Shown: positions 5,166 through 23,241 of the stretch, piece after piece
Numbering within the stretch: position 1 is the stretch's first letter
Layout of the letters: each line of letters opens with the position of its first letter
Source of the DNA: Gloeobacter violaceus PCC 7421
GTDB lineage: Bacteria; Cyanobacteriota; Cyanobacteriia; Gloeobacterales; Gloeobacteraceae
Reading direction: 5' to 3'
Length of the DNA: 64,000 nt
Assembly (NCBI RefSeq): GCF_000011385.1
Contig: NC_005125.1
Location: forward strand, 3,534,001-3,598,000
The notes under the pieces: model-generated
Database searches by the model: none
Told to the model about the DNA's origin: nothing
Seen by the model: only the letters and a program-made list of their open reading frames with translations
Position numbers and translations under genes: made by a program

Positions 5166-6320
5166 TCAGCGGGCGGTGCGCCACAGCAGCAGCACCCCGA
5201 GGGCACCGGTCGCGAGATTGGGTGCCCAGGCTCCCAACCAGGGAGCGATCACTCCGGTCTGACCGAGGGCCTGGGCGACGAACATCAGCAAGTAGTAGCC
5301 AAAAATAATCAAGATGCTCAGCCCCAAACCGAGGGCGTTGCTGGTGCGTACCCGCCTGAGGCCCAAAGTCGCGCCTACCAGAGCAAAGACAAAGCAGGTG
5401 ACCGGTATGGCGTACTTCTGCTGGAGGCTGACTTGCAGAGTGCGCACCTGCTGCTGCGAGAGTTCCAGGCGGCGGATGTAATCGCTCAGCTGGGCAATGG
5501 GCAGATCCTCCGGGCGCGCACCGCCCCCGAACTGCTCGGGCCGCTCGCTGAGCTTGACTTGCTGGCGCTTGAAGCGCAGTACATTGCGGTAGGAGCCGTC
5601 CGGGGCGACCACATAGACGGTGCCGTCCTGGAGTGTCCAGGATCCTGAGCGGTTGTCGTAGACCGCGGCGGCGGCGGTGATCACCTGGTTGATGGCATCT
5701 TGCGAATAATCGAGCACCGTCAGTTCGCGCATGATTCCCCCGGCGAACTGACGGGCATAGAACAGCCGCACCAGGGTGTGGTAGGTGGGGCGACCATCGC
5801 GCGGCGTCACAAACCCGTACTCGGGGTAGATGATATTGTCCTTCTGAAAATCGGGCTTGTCGCGGTCGATGGCCTGGAAGAGCAACCGGCTCGCTTCGGC
5901 GTTGCTCGCCGGTACCACCAGTTCGTTGCACATAAAGGTGGCCCCGGTGACCAGCAAACCGACCGCCAGGGCCGGGAGCACCAGCCGGTAGACGCTCATC
6001 CCGCAGGCGCGCATCGCCACCGTCTCGGCGTCGCCGGACAGCCGGGCGTAGGCCAGGAGCGTGGCGAGCAGCATCGCTGTAGGAAAAGTAATGACAATAA
6101 CAGAAGGAAGCCGCAGGGCGAACACCTGGGCTGCCACCGTCACCGACAGGCCGTTGTCGAGCATCGCCCGCACCAGCTCAAAGAGCGAGCCGACAATCAT
6201 GCCCAGGGAGGCAAACGTCGCCACCCCGAACAAAAACGGCAGCAGCAACTCCGAGACCAGATAGAGGTCCACAATCTTCAGGACTCTTGCTGTGGGATCC
6301 CCGCCTACTTTGCCAATCAT
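5166..6320 (-). CDS. LptF/LptG family permease
   Basis: A 384-residue YjgP/YjgQ (LptF/LptG) permease. The N-terminal part has three membrane helices (including the conserved block with SLFELVRAML, then FPTAMLLATLLAYARLSGD), a periplasmic beta-jellyroll of about 190 residues and three C-terminal helices. In Gram-negative bacteria LptF and LptG with the ATPase LptB extract lipopolysaccharide from the inner membrane. Cyanobacteria usually carry a single fused-role copy. It sits in the minus-strand envelope block, downstream of the polysaccharide ABC exporter genes, consistent with outer-membrane glycolipid transport. F cannot be told from G by eye. Confidence 0.88.
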   Translation of the reverse strand: MIGKVGGDPTARVLKIVDLYLVSELLLPFLFGVATFASLGMIVGSLFELVRAMLDNGLSVTVAAQVFALRLPSVIVITFPTAMLLATLLAYARLSGDAETVAMRACGMSVYRLVLPALAVGLLVTGATFMCNELVVPASNAEASRLLFQAIDRDKPDFQKDNIIYPEYGFVTPRDGRPTYHTLVRLFYARQFAGGIMRELTVLDYSQDAINQVITAAAAVYDNRSGSWTLQDGTVYVVAPDGSYRNVLRFKRQQVKLSERPEQFGGGARPEDLPIAQLSDYIRRLELSQQQVRTLQVSLQQKYAIPVTCFVFALVGATLGLRRVRTSNALGLGLSILIIFGYYLLMFVAQALGQTGVIAPWLGAWAPNLATGALGVLLLWRTAR

Positions 6321-6392
6321 GCGCGCTGGGACCGGAGCGAATGGCCAGATAAAAGCATAGCCTGAAACATTTGCGAAGCGCTCGTGGGCACC

Positions 6393-7151
6393 TCAGCCCC
6401 GCTCGGCGCCGGCGGGGATCTGCGTCGAGTGCAAGTAGCTTGCGATCACCTCGGCGGGGGGACCGGAGCGCATCACCCGGCCGCCGTTCATCCACACCAC
6501 CCGCTCGCAGCTTTGCTCGATATAGGGCAAATCGTGGGAAACCACTAGCACCGTCGCATTTTCTCCCCAGTACTGCTCCAGCCGACCGCGGCACTTGCTC
6601 TTAAAGCGCTCGTCACCCACCGAGAGCACCTCGTCGAGGATCAAAATATCCGGCGGCACGTCGGTGGCGATGGCAAAGCCAAGCCGGGCGGTCATCCCCG
6701 AGGAGAGCGTCTTAACCGGTGCATCGGCGTAAGCGGCCAAGTCGGCAAATTCGAGGATAGGCCGCACCCGAGCGCGCATCTCGCGGCGCGAGAACCCGAG
6801 CAGCACACCGTAGAGCACGATGTTGTCGACCAGCGACAGATCCGAGTCGAAGCCCGCCCCCAGTTCAATCAGGGGTGCAATCGCCCCGCGCACGTGCACC
6901 TCGCCGGTGGTCGGCTTGAGGATGCCGCAGATCACCTTGAGCAGGGTCGATTTGCCCGAGCCGTTCGAGCCCACGATCCCGACTTTCTCGCCGCTTTCGA
7001 TCGTCAGATCAACGCCTGCGAGCACCTGCTTGCGGCCGGGCTTGCGGTAGCGGCCGTCCAAAATAGTCAGGACAGTTTTTTTGAGGTCGTAGGAGAATTC
7101 TTCCTGGGTGCGCCGCCAGAGAGAAACGTTGCTGAGTCGAATGGCTTCCAA
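6393..7151 (-). CDS. ABC transporter ATPase, polysaccharide export (Wzt/KpsT/TagH type)
   Basis: A 252-residue ATPase with Walker A GSNGSGKSTLL, signature LSSGMTARLGF and Walker B DILILDEVLSVGD. The DEVLSVGD form and the phrase GAIAPLIELGAGF are typical of the ABCA subfamily that exports O-antigen, capsule or teichoic-acid polymers. It lacks the extra C-terminal carbohydrate-binding domain of long Wzt proteins, so export is probably not coupled to recognition of a modified chain end. The permease partner lies directly upstream on the same strand. Confidence 0.92.
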   Translation of the reverse strand: MEAIRLSNVSLWRRTQEEFSYDLKKTVLTILDGRYRKPGRKQVLAGVDLTIESGEKVGIVGSNGSGKSTLLKVICGILKPTTGEVHVRGAIAPLIELGAGFDSDLSLVDNIVLYGVLLGFSRREMRARVRPILEFADLAAYADAPVKTLSSGMTARLGFAIATDVPPDILILDEVLSVGDERFKSKCRGRLEQYWGENATVLVVSHDLPYIEQSCERVVWMNGGRVMRSGPPAEVIASYLHSTQIPAGAERG

Positions 7152-7199
7152 TGGGATGTTGCGGATGAACCTTTAGGCAGACTAGCGCAGTTGACCAGG

Positions 7200-8006
7200 C
7201 TACAACAAGTCCATGTAGCGATCGGACCAGGCGTGGAACAGCGCCCAACCGAGGCCGCAGACCACCCCACCCGACAGCAGGGCGAAACCCAGTAGACCCC
7301 AGTCGATGGCGGTGCCGCCTAAGATCAATTGGCGCAGGCTTTCGATGATCGGCGTGAGCGGGTTGATTGCAAGAAAAGGCTTGACAGAATCCGGAACGAT
7401 GGCCGCCGGATAGAACACCGGGCTGCTCAAAAACAGCGCAAAAGTGACCAATTCATAGATATAGGGCAAATCGCGAAAAAAGACATAGAGGGCGCTCACC
7501 ATCAGGCTGATGCCGGTCGCCACCAGCGCCAGGGCCAGCGAAGGCAAAAGCAGCAACGGCACGTGGGCGGGCTGCCCGGTGATGAACAAGGTCATCACCA
7601 CCAAAAGCGGCAGCACACCCACCACGTACTGAAAAATATTGGCACCCACCAGCGAAAGGGGGAGAACGCTGAAGGGAATACGGATTTTGTTGAGCATCGC
7701 GCCGCTTGCGACCACGCTCGGCAGGGCCTGGAGGGTGGTGATGTTGAAGAAGTTGATTACCACCAGGCCCGTGAAGGCGGCGAGCAGATAGCTCAGCAGC
7801 GAATCGTTGTAGTAAGAAGCGAACGTGGTGCCGAATATGGCCGTGTAGACCCCGGTCATGATCAGCGGATTGAGCAGCGACCAGTAAATGCCCAGTGCGG
7901 AGCCACGGTAGCGCACCTTGAGGTTGCGCCAGGTGAGCATGAACAGCAACTCCAGGTAGCGCTGAATCGAGGGATAGACTTTTTCGGGCTGAATCGCGCG
8001 CAGCAT
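7200..8006 (-). CDS. ABC-2 type permease for polysaccharide export (Wzm/KpsM/TagG type)
   Basis: A roughly 268-residue membrane protein with six predicted helices. The N-terminal amphipathic segment before the first helix (LLFMLTWRNLKVRYRGSALG) is characteristic of Wzm/KpsM/TagG permeases. I chose the second methionine (MLRAIQPEK, 8006), because the earlier one at 8030 adds eight poorly fitting residues. It is followed after 48 bp by its ATPase gene; together they form a complete exporter for a lipid-linked surface polysaccharide. The upstream region is shared with the divergently transcribed rnpB gene. Confidence 0.9.
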   Translation of the reverse strand: MLRAIQPEKVYPSIQRYLELLFMLTWRNLKVRYRGSALGIYWSLLNPLIMTGVYTAIFGTTFASYYNDSLLSYLLAAFTGLVVINFFNITTLQALPSVVASGAMLNKIRIPFSVLPLSLVGANIFQYVVGVLPLLVVMTLFITGQPAHVPLLLLPSLALALVATGISLMVSALYVFFRDLPYIYELVTFALFLSSPVFYPAAIVPDSVKPFLAINPLTPIIESLRQLILGGTAIDWGLLGFALLSGGVVCGLGWALFHAWSDRYMDLL

Positions 8007-8100
8007 GGCACATTGGGGGATTGGGCACATCCTTTACTATGCACCACCGGCGGGTGGATGCAACGGTCCGCCGGATGCCAAACCGGCCGCACCGCCGCCC

Positions 8101-14746: not shown

Positions 14747-15499
14747 TTAAAGACTATCCGGATCAATGCCCATCGCCCGCAGCCGTTCAGCAAGCGCCTG
14801 GGCGCGTTTTTCTGCCTCCAGGCGCGCCTGCCGCTCCCGCTGGGCCTGCTGTTCGGCCTCCTGCGCCCGGTAGCGCTGATATTCCTCAGGCACCGGATAG
14901 CGCTCGCCCCCTTCAGCGAACCAGAACAGCCATTCACGCTGCCAGCCATCGATTTGCCCTTGCGATCGACCGATACCCAGACCAATCTCAGGCAGCCAGA
15001 CCGGTTCACCGACCATCCGCACATACGCCCCCCCAACCAGGTGATGCACCTCCAGCCGCTCGTGCTCCGGCTGAAAACCTTCCGGGTCGTAGACCGCGTA
15101 GTACAGCACTTCGAGGTCCTGGTATTCTTTGAGCTTTTTGGTGTACTCCCCGCGGTAGGTTTGCGAGACCACCTCCAGGACAAAGACCGGCACGATGCCC
15201 TCTTCTTCCCAGAGCACATAGCTGGGGCGACCGCGCTTGCCGTACTCAGGTCTGAACCGGGGTACCCCAAGACTTAAAAAGCCGTCGGGGACAATCGCGG
15301 TTCTGGGCGCTTCGGTATTGGCGTAGATGCCCATGTCGATGCCGAAAAACCAGTCCGAACGATTCTGCCAGAGGAGTGCCAGGACGGCTTTGAGCACGGC
15401 GGGAACGGAGTCTTGCAGTTCGTTATCCACGGGCGTCTCATCGGAGTCGGGCAACTCCAGAGCGGTGGGCAGGCGTAGCGAGGCATCGAAGTGCACCAT
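14747..15499 (-). CDS. Uma2 family (DUF820) putative endonuclease
   Basis: A 250-residue Uma2 protein with a PD-(D/E)XK-like core: IVPDGFLSLG supplies the Asp, and FVLEVVSQTYRG supplies the E-x-V-S element with the later KLKEYQDLEVLYYAVYD block. The C-terminal 55 residues are an Arg/Glu/Gln-rich coiled coil ending in LRAMGIDPDSL, a very common tail of cyanobacterial Uma2 proteins. These are present in many copies in cyanobacterial genomes and their function is not established. I chose the ATG at 15499 (MVHFDASLRLP), because the upstream frame to 15883 lies over the next gene and reads as non-coding. Confidence 0.88.
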   Translation of the reverse strand: MVHFDASLRLPTALELPDSDETPVDNELQDSVPAVLKAVLALLWQNRSDWFFGIDMGIYANTEAPRTAIVPDGFLSLGVPRFRPEYGKRGRPSYVLWEEEGIVPVFVLEVVSQTYRGEYTKKLKEYQDLEVLYYAVYDPEGFQPEHERLEVHHLVGGAYVRMVGEPVWLPEIGLGIGRSQGQIDGWQREWLFWFAEGGERYPVPEEYQRYRAQEAEQQAQRERQARLEAEKRAQALAERLRAMGIDPDSL

Positions 15500-15605
15500 G
15501 GCCGTGCTGTGGGGAATGGCTGTCCCAAAGGTAGCAAACCCGGTGTGGGACAATGGGACGACTGCTGTCGAGAGCCAAATTTTGTTTTTTCTCGCGGGTA
15601 TTGCA

Positions 15606-17882
15606 TTACCCCATGGTGCAAAGCCCTTGCGGGGCAGGCTGAGGGGGAGTGGGTGGGCACCAGAACAAGTTCCTGCTCGAGACGTCAAGCGCGTTGAGGA
15701 TGCCGCGCATCGTCTCTGTGCAGAACAACCAGTAACCTGGATCCTCGTACATGCGGTCGGGATTGAACTCCAGATCGTAGTGCCCCACCTTTGGCAGTCC
15801 CGAAAATTCCTGCGAGGACTGTGCGGAGAGAACCAACAGGTGAAACGGCTTGCCCTCGCATGCTTGTTCGAGTTTTTCGACAAGGTCCATCACACCGCCG
15901 CGATCGGCGACGCCCGTGCGCACGAAGAGCACTTCGTCGCAACTGCGCAGGGTGTACCAGAACCGTTCGCAGCGCGCCGTGTACCGGATGCGCATGCGTT
16001 CGTGGACGGGAGACAGATCGTGCAGGGCATCGTCCGTGGCTTCGACTTCGTGGGCGAAGGACAGCCCCGTCCAGCGGGTGTGGTAAATCCTGCCTGCCTC
16101 GGGGCTGTAGCACAGCAAGGCGGGGTCCCACATGCCTTCGAAGCGGCGGGCGACCATGTCTGCCACTTCGGCGATGGAGGCTGTGCGCGTCAGGTCGAAC
16201 GGAAACGCCGGCCCATCGTACCCGATCTTGTACAACAACATCCGGACGGCACACCGGTCGCCGAGCGGCACGATCGCGACGCGGCGGCGCGCGGACAACT
16301 CGCAGGTGTATCGGAAGGACACGGCGGAGCGGGGCGGCGCTTTGACCCGGCTTTCCAGGCCGTTGTGGCCGATCATCGCGGTGCGAAACGGCGCGCGGTG
16401 ATCGAGTGGGTCCTCGTAGACGCCCGGCGGCAGGGCCTTGAAGGCGGCGCGCACCTCCGGCCACATTGGATGGATATTGTACTCGTGGTCCGATTCGTTG
16501 ATCACCCGAAAGCGGTGTTCGTCCTCCCGCACAATCCACAGGTGCCCGTCGTGGAACAGCAGTGCCCGTTCGTCCTGCAGGTACCGCTCGAGGGCGTGTC
16601 TGTATTCCAGTGCGGCGCCGGGCGGAACGACGATCGTCGTCTCGATCGCGCCGTCGTCCCCCACCGCCAGGAAGGCGGGCTCTCCCTGAGCGGCCTCCTC
16701 CGCAACATAGACGCCCGGTGTCAATACCGCCTTGCAGCGCAGGGCCGTTTGCAGTTCCTGCCAGCCGGTGTCGACGGTGTAGACGTGGGGCGACGCATTG
16801 GCGATCCACAGGCGCTGCTGCCCGCTGCTGCCCGAGACGCGAAATCCCAGGCCGTCGAGATAGATGGGGGTTTCGGGCCGCTGTCGAAAGCGCCGCTTCT
16901 GTTCTTCCAGTGCGTCTTTGCCGACGCAAAACAAGCGCAGGTCGATAGCCTCGTACATCAGGCGGTGGCCGATGGTGTTCGGGTGGGCCGGGTCGAAGCT
17001 GATCCCCGGCTTCCAGCACCCCCGTCCGTCGTCCACCGCTGCGAGCCAGTCCAGCACCGGCACACCCCAATGGGCCATGCGCAGGTGCGTCTCCCACAAC
17101 AGCCGGTGGTGTTCGGGGGAATAGTCGCCATGGGGATAGACCCCGCCCAGGATAGCAAGCGCTCCTAGATCCTGCGCCATCTGCACAAGCCGCCGCAACC
17201 CGCTCTCGAAGCGGCGCACCCCCGTCCGCCGTTCGGAGGGGGGACAGTGGGCAAATCCCTCGTTGCCCAACGACAGGGAGATGACAACGACATCGGGTCG
17301 CTCCGGGGCCACCGCCGCGGCGAACCGGGCCGCTGTCGTGCCGACGTTCGCGCCCGCCTCCGACACGTTCACCAACTGGTGCCCGTACTTCTGCAGCAGG
17401 CTCTTCCCCAACAGCGAGGCCCAGCCCTCCAGCAACCAGGCTTTGTAGCCCAGGGCAACCGAACTGCCGATGACGACAATCTTCAATCCTGCGCCCTGTT
17501 CGGAGCGGTGAGCGACGGCGGGCAGCTTGGCGCACCCGAACGGATGGGGCTGCAGGTAACCAAAGGCACCATCGTCCACCGTGACGCAGGAGCGGCGGCC
17601 GGAAGCAACCGGCACCCAACGGTCGGGGCCGATCGCTTCCCACTGCGCGCTGCCATCCGGACCGAGGCGGATGTATTTGTATTCGACCCTCTGGGACTGA
17701 ATCCCCTTCGATGCCGACCGAAACTTGATCGCTGCGTCCGTCCGCCACAGCGGATAGAGTTTGGCGCTCGTGCACAGGCGGATGCATTTCGCGACATCCC
17801 ACCGGCCCAGTTCGGGGGCGGAACCGACGAGGCCGATGCACTCGCCGATCTGGGTGTGGGCGATGAGCTGGAATCGGTACAC
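15606..17882 (-). CDS. CBM20 starch-binding domain - SGNH hydrolase - DUF1796-like cysteine peptidase fusion
   Basis: A multidomain protein of about 758 residues. The first 95 residues match a CBM20 starch-binding domain (GSAPELGRWD, VEYKYIRLGPDGS, WEAIG). An SGNH/GDSL hydrolase follows: block I VVIGSSVALGY with the Ser nucleophile, SLGNEG, and the Asp-His pair DPAHPNTIGH. A middle region may hold two beta-domains. The last 190 residues resemble DUF1796 putative cysteine peptidases (GDRCAVRMLLYKIGYDGPAFPFD, CDEVLFVR). It may deacylate or process a glucan-bound substrate. I chose a GTG at 17882 just before the CBM20; the ATGs at 18035 and 18143 add about 50-87 residues that overlap a cupin fragment on the other strand. 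Confidence 0.72.
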   Translation of the reverse strand: MYRFQLIAHTQIGECIGLVGSAPELGRWDVAKCIRLCTSAKLYPLWRTDAAIKFRSASKGIQSQRVEYKYIRLGPDGSAQWEAIGPDRWVPVASGRRSCVTVDDGAFGYLQPHPFGCAKLPAVAHRSEQGAGLKIVVIGSSVALGYKAWLLEGWASLLGKSLLQKYGHQLVNVSEAGANVGTTAARFAAAVAPERPDVVVISLSLGNEGFAHCPPSERRTGVRRFESGLRRLVQMAQDLGALAILGGVYPHGDYSPEHHRLLWETHLRMAHWGVPVLDWLAAVDDGRGCWKPGISFDPAHPNTIGHRLMYEAIDLRLFCVGKDALEEQKRRFRQRPETPIYLDGLGFRVSGSSGQQRLWIANASPHVYTVDTGWQELQTALRCKAVLTPGVYVAEEAAQGEPAFLAVGDDGAIETTIVVPPGAALEYRHALERYLQDERALLFHDGHLWIVREDEHRFRVINESDHEYNIHPMWPEVRAAFKALPPGVYEDPLDHRAPFRTAMIGHNGLESRVKAPPRSAVSFRYTCELSARRRVAIVPLGDRCAVRMLLYKIGYDGPAFPFDLTRTASIAEVADMVARRFEGMWDPALLCYSPEAGRIYHTRWTGLSFAHEVEATDDALHDLSPVHERMRIRYTARCERFWYTLRSCDEVLFVRTGVADRGGVMDLVEKLEQACEGKPFHLLVLSAQSSQEFSGLPKVGHYDLEFNPDRMYEDPGYWLFCTETMRGILNALDVSSRNLFWCPPTPPQPAPQGLCTMG

Positions 17883-17984
17883 GGGTATGCCTTCGCTTCG
17901 GAGCGCGTTGCCGGGCGCGGCAATCGTAGAAGTGCAAATCGCCTCGACAGTATCACGTCCGGTCTGTGCTGTCGGTACTGCAGC

Positions 17985-18249: not shown

Positions 18250-18606
18250 CTAGCGGGCGAGTTTGCGCCCGACGGTGAGCCCTACCAAAAAACCGATACC
18301 CAGAGCCGCTCCCAGGATCTTGTAATCCGCGAATGGAATAAATCGCGTACCCTCGGCGGTAATCTCCAGCGCGCCTGCAGGCACCGCCCCCATCCCACCG
18401 CCACCGCCACCGCCGGGAACGTCGGGCTGTTCGGCTTCGGCCTGCTGGGCACGGCCTCCGGCACCTGCTCCGAAGCCGTATCCAACGCGGGCCACCGGGA
18501 CAACCGTCCGGCCTGCAACAGTAATCGGCGCTCCGTACACGGAGCGCACACTGGCTCCATCCTGCAAGCGTTCGCTGAAGCGGCGAAAAAGTTCCGTCAG
18601 GCTCAT
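18250..18606 (-). CDS. GerW/YtfJ family protein
   Basis: A 118-residue protein with the GerW/YtfJ pattern: an N-terminal helix, the strand pair around VYGAPITVAGRTVVPVARVGYGFGAG, a glycine-rich run, then FIPFADYK and a C-terminal hydrophobic helix (LGAALGIGFLVGLTVG). The family was named for spore germination in Bacillus, but homologues occur widely in non-spore-formers with no known role. The C-terminal helix suggests membrane attachment. The ATG at 18606 follows an aggaa ribosome-binding site. Confidence 0.85.
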   Translation of the reverse strand: MSLTELFRRFSERLQDGASVRSVYGAPITVAGRTVVPVARVGYGFGAGAGGRAQQAEAEQPDVPGGGGGGGMGAVPAGALEITAEGTRFIPFADYKILGAALGIGFLVGLTVGRKLAR

Positions 18607-19288: not shown

Positions 19289-19744
19289 ACTTGTGCGCCT
19301 GAGTTCTCAATCAAGCTCAATCCTGGGTGGCGCAGTCCAGTGCGGTTTTGGTGGGAGGTTGTTTGACGGATTTGATTTCGAGCGAAGCGTCTAATCGAGG
19401 AAGAAGGGAACTGCAGTCCGCTAGAGGAAAACATCTCCTGTGTTTCTTTGTGTACAGCGCTTCTTCAACTGTCGCTCTGATCCGGTTACTGAATCTCCTT
19501 GAGAATCCAAAGCTTAGCGGAGCTTTGTTTTTTCTGGCATTTCTTGGTTTTGAGCCGACATTCCGCAGGTTCAAGCGTGATTGCTGGAATTTTCGCTTCT
19601 CACCGGAATGTCAGCCATAGCCCCTACCAGCGACTCATCGCTCCTGCGGCTCCTGCCGCTACAGGCGCAGTCTTTTCTGGCTTTTCAGCCTCTCTGTGCT
19701 CATAATTGTCTCTCGCCTCGCATGTATTTTCGTGCCTCCTCTGC
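19289..19744. other. gene-poor stretch before the broken insertion sequence
   Basis: No convincing gene. Short frames are open but show no recognisable protein. The sequence atgtattttcg near 19722 resembles the reverse complement of the segment beyond the other end of the transposase remnant (ccaaaatacttc, near 21388), so the left end of the element may lie here. Confidence 0.4.
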
Positions 19745-21383
19745 TCAGCCCACCAGGTAGTAGCGCCCACATGCTTCGCCCAAAAGTTGCACCACCCGTC
19801 GCCGCTCCTCGTTGAGGTTCGACACCTGCCCGGCTCCTGCAACCTCCAGCAGATGCACCGCCTGGAAACTTTGGAAGATCCAGCGCAAGGTTGGGGTCGC
19901 TGTTGGCTTTTTCAGTTGGTTCTTCACCGTCGTTTGCGTTTCGGCTAGAGCCTGGCGCAACTGCCGCTGCCCGAGACTGTAGACCAACAGGCACAGCCCC
20001 ATCACCAGGGCCAACGCCTCCACGCGCTCGGGCAACTTCAAGAACACGCTGGAGGTAAAAAACAGCGGGTCTTTGAGGAAGCGAAACCCCCGCTCTACCG
20101 ACTGCTGGGCTTTGTACTGCGACAGCACCTGCGTGCTCGAAAGCCGCTCATGCTCCAGCACGTTGGTGGCCAGCACGAACTTGCTTGCCTGCGGTGTGCT
20201 GCTTCCCCTCGATGGCGCTTGGGTTGCGCAGCAGTTGGGCCGAGAGCAGCCACACCCCAGTCTTTTCGGGTCTGCTGGCTTTGGCTGGTCTACCGCTTTT
20301 GGGGTGACGCACCTGTGCTTGCGCCCGCACTGCCCCCAACAGGTGGTACTTCAACCCACCGGCGAAGCGTTCCGCCGCTGCCAGGGCATCGGCTTAACAG
20401 GCAAACTCCACCTTGCACAATTTGGCCAGTTCCTTGTTGGTCTTGGCGTCCGACTCGCCTAGTATCTTCTCGAGGGCGGCAAGGTCGCTTTTGCGCCGCT
20501 CGTCGCTTTCGACCACCACCCACCGCTGAACGACTTGCCCGTAAGTACTGCCCACCTCCACCACCCGATAGCCCGATTGGGCCGGGGCGAACTGCTCCTC
20601 TTTGAGCGCTGCAAGCACGTGCTTGACTGCGCTGAGAGTGGAGGGGACGCGGGTCAGCCAGTGCATCCCGGCTAACTCGCTGAGGTTCTGGGCACTGTAG
20701 AGAGCTGAGTCCACGACGAATAGGGCTTCCACGTCCCACTGAGCTTTAAAATCTTTGATTATCTGGGCGAAGACGGCCTTGTCGGCCTGATTGCCATCGC
20801 CCACCTGCAGATACAGCGGCACGTCCCCATCGCCGCTTGTGATCATGCTGAGCAAGAACTGCTTGAGGTCCGGGCGGTGATCCCGCAAATAACCGTGCGT
20901 AATCACAATCGGCTACGCTTCGTCTTCGGCGCGAGGTGCCACCCGTCCGTTTGGGGTGTACTCGCCATCGACATGAAAGAATGTTGAGTCCAGATGCACA
21001 CTGTCGGTCTTGACGCCAAACTGCCGGGCCGCCTTGAGGGCCAGATGGACGAAGACTTTGGTGGTGCCCTCGTCGTAAAGCTTAGCGAGCACCCGGCCCA
21101 ACCGGTCATCATTAAAATGCTTGGGCAGCACGCCTGGACCAATCAGGTGCTCAGTGGCTTTACCGACAAAGAACTGCTCGAACAGGTACAGCGGTGCCGA
21201 AACGCAGCCGAGGCCGTTGAGAATGAGGCCCTTGAGCACTTGGCCGCAGCTCACATGCTCCTGCGGATGGGTGCCCAGCAGCCGGTCAACTTCTTCAACC
21301 AGGCCGATAGAGTCGATGATTCCAGCGACGATGCCGAGGTGGTCGAGATTGTGAACCTGGATTTCAGCAGGAGGCTGGCTCAT
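19745..21383 (-). pseudogene. IS1634-family-like transposase, inactivated
   Basis: Read from right to left, the frame opens with a DUF4277-like N-terminal domain (HNLDHLGIVAGIID, GLVEEVD), continues with the DDE core (VDSALYS, HLDSTFFHVDG) and ends with the helical part FRFLKDPLFF. The frame is broken at least three times: an in-frame TAG at 20913-20915, an in-frame TAA at 20394-20396, and a shift near 20180-20220, after which the last 140 codons read in another frame. It cannot make an active transposase as it stands. It lies inside what seems to be a beta-barrel gene whose 3' part follows at 21400. Confidence 0.85.
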
Positions 21384-22335: not shown

Positions 22336-23241
22336 ATGATGGGCAGCAAGCGCAGCATACATCCCGAGGAGAAGCTCAAGCTGCTGGAAGGTCCTCATAC
22401 AGAAACCGTTGGTGGGTCGCTTCGCCTCGATGAAATCGTGGTGTGCTGCAGCCAACCCCGCCGCTTCTTCGATTCGGCCGCCATGGGCGAACTGATCGAA
22501 TCGATCCGCCGGGTCGGGATCTTGCAGCCGCTGCTGGTCAGGCCTTTGGCGAACGGCAAATACGAACTGGTAGCCGGCGAACGGCGCTTCCGGGCGGCCC
22601 GGGCAGTGGGCTTGGAGGCGGTGCCGGTCGTGATTCGCCAACTGAGCGACACCGAGGCGGTCGAGCAGGCCCTGGTCGAGAACCTGCAGCGCGAGAGCCT
22701 CAATCCTCTGGAGGAGACCGAGAGCATCCTGCAGCTGTTGGCGCTCAAGCTCGGCAAATCGGAGGAGCAGACGGTCTCGCTGCTCTATCGTCTGCAGAAC
22801 GCCTCGCGCAAGAAAACTACCCATAACGTTATAGGTAGTACCGAGGCCCAGACCGTCGAGGCGGTCTTCGCCTCCGTCGGCAAGATGACCTGCGAGTCCT
22901 TCGTCAACAACCGCTTGCCGCTACGCAACATGCCCCACGATGTTTTCAAGGCGTTGCGCGAGGGGCGGCTCGCTTACACCAAGGCCCGTGTCCTCGCCCA
23001 GGTCAAAGATCGCACCCAGCGGGAAATGCTGCTCAAGGAGTCTCTCCAACGCGACCTCAGCCTCAGCCAGTTGCGCCAGCTCATCAAGACCACCTGCGGC
23101 GCTCCTGAGCCGGAACCGTTGCTCAAGCGCCTGACCACCGTCTACCGCCGCATCAAAAAGCTCAAGTGGGAAGATCCGCTCAAACGCGCCCGCTTCGAAG
23201 CACTGATCACAGAACTCGATTCGCTCATCGGCGATCAATAG
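22336..23241 (+). CDS. ParB/RepB/Spo0J family DNA-binding partition-like protein
   Basis: A 301-residue ParB-type protein. The N-terminal ParB/sulfiredoxin-fold domain carries the CTP-binding GERRFRAARA and ENLQRESLNPLEE motifs, followed by a helical DNA-binding region and a C-terminal charged helix. ParB proteins load on centromere-like parS sites and work with ParA. No parA is adjacent and no classical parS (tgtttcacgtgaaaca) is visible, so this is an orphan, probably of plasmid or mobile-element origin. A ggggagga site precedes the double ATG. It borders decayed IS material on one side and a 1 kb AT-rich stretch on the other. Confidence 0.88.
   Translation: MMGSKRSIHPEEKLKLLEGPHTETVGGSLRLDEIVVCCSQPRRFFDSAAMGELIESIRRVGILQPLLVRPLANGKYELVAGERRFRAARAVGLEAVPVVIRQLSDTEAVEQALVENLQRESLNPLEETESILQLLALKLGKSEEQTVSLLYRLQNASRKKTTHNVIGSTEAQTVEAVFASVGKMTCESFVNNRLPLRNMPHDVFKALREGRLAYTKARVLAQVKDRTQREMLLKESLQRDLSLSQLRQLIKTTCGAPEPEPLLKRLTTVYRRIKKLKWEDPLKRARFEALITELDSLIGDQ

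Follow-up and report, generated by a model that had tools for sequence, protein, structure and literature searches.

What might a cyanobacterium do with a single protein that joins a starch-binding domain, an SGNH esterase domain and a DUF1796 domain? Such a protein is encoded in Gloeobacter violaceus PCC 7421, the genome of which consists of a single contig of 4,659,019 bases, within a stretch of 64,000 nucleotides that was analysed as a whole and is here called the window. A first-pass annotation made from the sequence had described the protein as a fusion of CBM20, an SGNH hydrolase and a DUF1796-like putative cysteine peptidase. The features on which our analysis builds are the following, in window positions:

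15606..17882, minus strand: whole gene, 758 amino acids, GTG start at 17880-17882 and stop at 15606; start kept in 33 homologs
17890..17894, minus strand: GAAGG, resembling a ribosome-binding site, about 8 bases before the GTG; read from the sequence alone
17586..17876, minus strand: CBM20 starch-binding domain, residues 3-99; Pfam CBM_20, E 4.7e-19
17640..17801, minus strand: CBM20 site-1 codons, W28 at 17799-17801, K69 at 17676-17678 and W81 at 17640-17642; aligned to site 1 of glucoamylase
16959..17474, minus strand: SGNH/GDSL hydrolase domain, residues 137-308; Pfam Lipase_GDSL_2, E 3.1e-15, and fold match to PbeAcXE
17460..17462, minus strand: S141, predicted catalytic serine in the GSSVALG block; invariant in 33 homologs and aligned with the TesA serine
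16983..16994, minus strand: DxxH block, D297 at 16992-16994 and H300 at 16983-16985; invariant in 33 homologs
16575..16877, minus strand: repeat 1, covering residues 336-436, a beta-sandwich resembling domain C of GH13 enzymes; predicted fold, pLDDT 91
16293..16571, minus strand: repeat 2, residues 438-530, domain-C-like beta-sandwich; predicted fold, homologous to repeat 1
15648..16274, minus strand: DUF1796 domain, Pfam match over residues 537-674, E 4.1e-9; conserved to about residue 745
16050..16253, minus strand: candidate DUF1796 active-site codons, C544 at 16251-16253, D563 at 16194-16196 and H611 at 16050-16052

The open frame is longer than the gene and extends to 18143 (845 amino acids). 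The GTG at 17880-17882 was taken as the start because it is preceded by GAAGG and because the N-terminus that it yields, MYRFQ..., is common to all 33 aligned homologs; position, strand and start had thus been correctly given in the first-pass annotation. Immediately downstream, at 14747-15883 on the minus strand, lies a Uma2-type putative restriction endonuclease (PF05685), the frame of which overlaps the 3' end of our gene, so that its true start is probably downstream of 15883. Upstream, at 18250-18606 on the minus strand, a small protein with a Spore_YtfJ match (PF09579) is encoded in this non-spore-forming host. An operon with either gene was considered and rejected, as neither is among the commonest neighbour families of the homologous loci. 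Elsewhere in the window, fragments resembling an interrupted transposase in at least two frames (19659-21383, minus strand; two fragments tested, no Pfam match) adjoin a complete ParB-like gene (22336-23241, plus strand), and a consecutive ABC-2 permease, ABC ATPase and LptF/LptG-type permease (5166-8030, minus strand) form a polysaccharide or lipopolysaccharide export cluster.

The three-domain fusion is confirmed, with CBM20 (68.4 bits, cut-off 23.3; PF00686), SGNH (57.6 bits, cut-off 32.9; PF13472) and DUF1796 (36.9 bits, cut-off 23; PF08795) all exceeding their Pfam cut-offs. Including the part between SGNH and DUF1796, the order is CBM20, SGNH, a pair of domain-C-like modules and DUF1796, and there is no GH13 catalytic barrel; the predicted model of the whole protein has a mean pLDDT of 86. 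The CBM20 profile matches the starch-binding domain of Aspergillus niger glucoamylase (1ac0, E 1.2e-13), and in the alignment of 33 homologs neither W28 nor W81 varies, while K69 is kept in at least 90%. Their counterparts in glucoamylase are residues that we take to be the glucan-binding residues of site 1. A second CBM20 protein of the genome (G000:C1:389224-389475, locus L002) belongs to an 835-residue frame whose sequence resembles a GH13 amylase.

The SGNH domain retains S141, G177, N207, D297 and H300 in all 33 sequences, down to 48% identity, with GSS rather than GDS in block I. In the predicted model it superposes on many SGNH enzymes with Z-scores of 17-23, the best match being the acetylxylan esterase PbeAcXE (Z 23.3, rmsd 2.2 over 200 residues). 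The intact Ser/Asp/His elements noted in the first-pass annotation are therefore present, and the CBM20 and SGNH assignments both hold up. With the carbohydrate esterases PbeAcXE (7tog), Axe2 (3w7v) and CEX (6hfz) the protein shares the SGNH fold and the set of Ser, Gly, Asn, Asp and His. Those enzymes act on plant hemicellulose, whereas the Gloeobacter protein carries a CBM20, two domain-C-like modules and a DUF1796 domain and has no visible signal peptide. Another parallel is offered by laforin (4rkk) and GPCPD1 (2z0b), both encountered as CBM20 matches, in which a CBM20 is joined to an intracellular hydrolase, so that within the cell a starch-binding domain targets a catalytic part other than a glycosidase; unlike the cyanobacterial protein, both are from animals, and catalysis is by a phosphatase in the former and by a phosphodiesterase in the latter. 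Esterase fold and glucan targeting are thus well supported, the activity itself being predicted.

Residues 336-530, left without assignment in the first-pass annotation, are in the predicted model two repeats that resemble amylase domain C. Modelled as residues 336-748 (mean pLDDT 91, pTM 0.86), the C-terminal half shows two beta-sandwiches between SGNH and DUF1796, the first matching domain C of cyclodextrin glucanotransferase (CGTase; Z 9.9, rmsd 3.2, 87 residues) and the second that of 2z1k (Z 8.9, rmsd 2.2, 77 residues). Comparison by hhalign shows the repeats to be homologs of one another (E 1.6e-13; z of 16 against shuffled sequences for the Gloeobacter protein), and their likeness to domain C is one of predicted fold, a Pfam search of this region at E up to 1 giving no match. 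CGTase and other GH13 amylases likewise have a CBM20 and a domain-C beta-sandwich; the Gloeobacter protein differs from them in lacking the GH13 catalytic barrel and in having domain C duplicated. With the CBM20 and the two domain-C-like repeats, three of the five domains indicate an alpha-glucan.

In the DUF1796 domain, C544 (G-x-x-C), D563 (PFD) and H611 are invariant in the 33 homologs; among stand-alone DUF1796 proteins the Cys and Asp are kept in nearly all and the His in most. With the putative cysteine peptidases of PF08795, including giant-virus proteins, the domain has Cys, His, Asp and two Arg in common as well as the fold, Foldseek matching it to the giant-virus DUF1796-type proteins with E 5.9e-8 and a TM-score of 0.68 on the target. 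When the region was compared with solved structures in view of a possible papain-like peptidase fold, no match stood out, only the giant-virus members of the same family matching; this does not by itself make the fold a novel one. A plasmid search with the region gave no match, and a literature search on DUF1796 retrieved no publication and no tested function. Elsewhere in the phylum DUF1796 is mostly a stand-alone protein of about 260 amino acids encoded beside glycan-synthesis genes, as opposed to the fused form in Gloeobacter, and these stand-alone proteins are found mostly in one family of small-genome cyanobacterial relatives. Their genes (loci L131-L159, e.g. L142:393-2262 and L145:149-3025) lie between DegT/DnrJ/EryC1 aminotransferases and GT2 glycosyltransferases. 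This proximity to sugar aminotransferases and glycosyltransferases in other bacteria of the phylum suggests that DUF1796 acts in glycan chemistry or synthesis and not in proteolysis. The first-pass annotation had considered a processing role for the domain; it is a peptidase by family name only. We set aside a peptidase as the main role, for which the glycan-synthesis context gives no support and the solved structures no clear match.

As to where the protein acts, the N-termini of all 33 aligned homologs begin within the first strand of the CBM20, which leaves no space for a signal peptide. The protein is therefore probably cytosolic, as far as its N-terminus can tell; a secreted or surface enzyme is disfavoured, and the surface glucan that had been proposed as one possible target becomes less likely.

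The combination is not an isolated case. Full-length homologs with the same domain order occur outside Gloeobacter in many cyanobacterial families at 48-66% identity, as the first-pass annotation had suggested be looked for, and their presence in many genera rules out a chance fusion or assembly artefact. In a sample of 386 genomes of the phylum, 28 had a match, of which 26 were real and 2 were fragments, and a scan of 84,980 species gave 142 loci; all 80 loci among the matches listed are cyanobacterial, with Aphanocapsa lilacina and Gloeobacterales as near relatives. The middle and DUF1796 module is present in 62 of 319 genomes of the class, the frames that hold it almost always measuring about 735-890 amino acids, and within the class this C-terminal module is almost confined to proteins of the present type. 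Judged from these sequences, the architecture does not change between cyanobacteria that lie far apart in the phylum, and among the matches listed it occurs in no other group. In three genomes the protein is split over two frames, which in one (G186) are contiguous and may reflect a frameshift. Relics of the gene were seen at G210:C3:6269084-6269314 and G163:C100:24173-24493, in two genomes that also have no synthetase ortholog of the kind described below. The literature searched for a starch-binding domain together with an SGNH/GDSL hydrolase contained no earlier description or characterisation of this architecture, in agreement with the first-pass annotation, to which it was unfamiliar; each domain is known, and the combination is new to that literature.

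To find a functional context, all neighbours at the 80 listed loci (of 142) were clustered into families. An AMP-forming acyl-CoA synthetase was by far the commonest, present within 8 kb at 54 of the 80 listed loci, the next family reaching 11. Where the flank was at least 7 kb on both sides, it was linked in 36 of 47 loci. It lies 0.1-7 kb from the gene in either orientation, and in G186 it is immediately upstream. Genes of glycogen metabolism were absent from the recurrent neighbours of the 80 listed loci, which counts against an esterase acting on glycogen. About ten Nostocales loci besides L062 have heme oxygenase and HemN-like genes nearby (identified by eye), probably as local synteny.

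The two genes are also inherited together. A search of the 386 genomes, scoring four candidates per genome, gave 19 synthetase orthologs with 62-79% identity, all 19 of them in genomes that carry the CBM20-SGNH-DUF1796 protein and none in the approximately 360 genomes without it; further genomes beyond this search carry both. In view of the limit of four candidates, 18 negative genomes were searched again with all candidates scored, and nothing closer than a distant relative (34%) appeared. The probability of such a pattern by chance is about 1e-26 when phylogeny is ignored, a value that overstates the case since the genomes are related and hence not independent. Seven contrasts within genera or families (g1, g50, g46, g56, f26, f31 and f35) agree, each comprising genomes with both genes and one with neither (in g56 the negative genome, so counted, retains only a C-terminal relic of the protein), and for the synthetase none runs the opposite way. 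In Gloeobacter itself both genes are present, the synthetase gene at G000:C1:1202678-1204159, at a distance of 2.35 Mb, a pattern that simple linkage fails to explain, and its relative G002 has neither. The protein does occur without a close synthetase ortholog in at least six clades (G005, f5, f7, f8, f25 and f41). Since the protein occurs without the synthetase and the reverse was never seen, the synthetase would represent a downstream, optional recycling step. With a co-inherited partner, what was an oddity becomes a hypothesis of a two-gene pathway that can be tested.

The solved structures closest to the synthetase are those of the (methyl)malonyl-CoA synthetase MatB (4fuq and 3nyq, which the Gloeobacter protein matches with E 1e-78 to 1e-79). 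It misses the NCBIfam cut-off for malonyl-CoA synthase (393 versus 558 bits), hence we call it MatB-like and not MatB. Eleven residues are reported as specific for the methylmalonyl-CoA synthetase group, and His209, Ser277, Arg299 and Met486 line the substrate pocket (PMC6122825). The partner synthetase has these pocket residues in common with MatB, His209, Ser277 and Arg299 being kept in 55 of 55 sequences and Met486 in 54, and Met247 is likewise kept in 54 or 55 of the 55. Six of the eleven group-specific residues differ, among them Arg255, which is replaced by Lys (alignment read by eye), and this leaves room for a different small carboxylate as the acid. From the residues kept, a small dicarboxylate is the likely substrate, and malonate itself is plausible.

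Taken together, we favour a reading that we consider about evenly poised between right and wrong: a cytosolic acyl-esterase acting on stored alpha-glucan, the freed acid being re-activated by the MatB-like synthetase and DUF1796 contributing a second activity. The CBM20, probably with the two domain-C-like modules, would hold the protein on glycogen or malto-oligosaccharides, where the SGNH domain would cut a short acyl ester off the glucan. In genomes that have it, the synthetase would turn the released acid, for which malonate or a comparable small dicarboxylate is the likeliest candidate, into a CoA ester; DUF1796 might act on that glucan substrate too, by thiol-based acyl transfer or an amidase-type reaction. 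The polysaccharide-targeted deacylase of the first-pass annotation, perhaps acting on glycogen, survives here without its surface variant, fitting the conserved CBM20 and SGNH residues and the carbohydrate-esterase matches. Against this reading counts that we know of no acylated glycogen in cyanobacteria, and so do the clades that have the protein but no close synthetase ortholog; glycogen acylation in these organisms was not found in the literature searched.

The main rival reverses the direction: the synthetase would make an acyl-CoA from which the DUF1796 Cys, the SGNH Ser or both acylate glycogen or malto-oligosaccharides, giving a possibly anionic glucan. That the partner enzyme produces acyl-CoA, that DUF1796 elsewhere sits in glycan-biosynthesis gene groups beside DegT-type sugar aminotransferases and GT2 glycosyltransferases, and that SGNH folds include acyltransferases (one, 8zbc, among the structural matches) all speak for such a writer. 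We nevertheless think it rather less probable than removal of the acyl group, as the closest SGNH structural matches are hydrolases and a dedicated synthetase would be needless for a malonyl donor, malonyl-CoA being, to our knowledge, already made by every cyanobacterium for fatty acids. Somewhat less probable again, and in our view unlikely, is that the CBM20 and domain-C-like parts serve purely as anchor or regulator, the substrate being a small molecule, lipid or protein at the glycogen particle, in a manner comparable to GPCPD1, which couples a CBM20 to a glycerophosphodiesterase. In its favour are the likeness of the SGNH domain to the thioesterase/lysophospholipase TesA and the pairing of CBM20 with unrelated catalytic domains in laforin 4rkk and the putative GPCPD1 entry 2z0b; against it are the closest fold matches, which are to esterases of polysaccharides and polymers, and the three glucan-type modules of the protein. 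Finally, it is quite improbable that the association with the synthetase reflects historical linkage, co-transfer or co-loss of neighbours without shared function: many linked loci come from closely related Nostocales and distances and intervening genes vary, yet the far-separated Gloeobacter genes are both present or both absent in the relatives examined (except the fragmented G005, with the protein only), orientation differs between lineages, and no other neighbour exceeds 11 of the 80 listed loci.

A bolder proposal, to which we attach little probability, is that many cyanobacteria reversibly acylate their stored glycogen with a short acid, probably in the form of malonyl groups, the protein serving as a glucan-bound writer and/or eraser and the synthetase recycling or supplying the acid. 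If true, reversible glycogen acylation would be the acyl counterpart of glycogen phosphorylation and laforin. Returning to the esterase that we favour, the fixed combination of domains and its predicted metabolic partner probably mark an undescribed step in alpha-glucan metabolism. They place DUF1796 in a functional setting for the first time, point to a probable class of substrate for a MatB-like enzyme that otherwise has no explained source of its acid, and yield a directly testable two-gene hypothesis that asks whether cyanobacterial glycogen is acylated.
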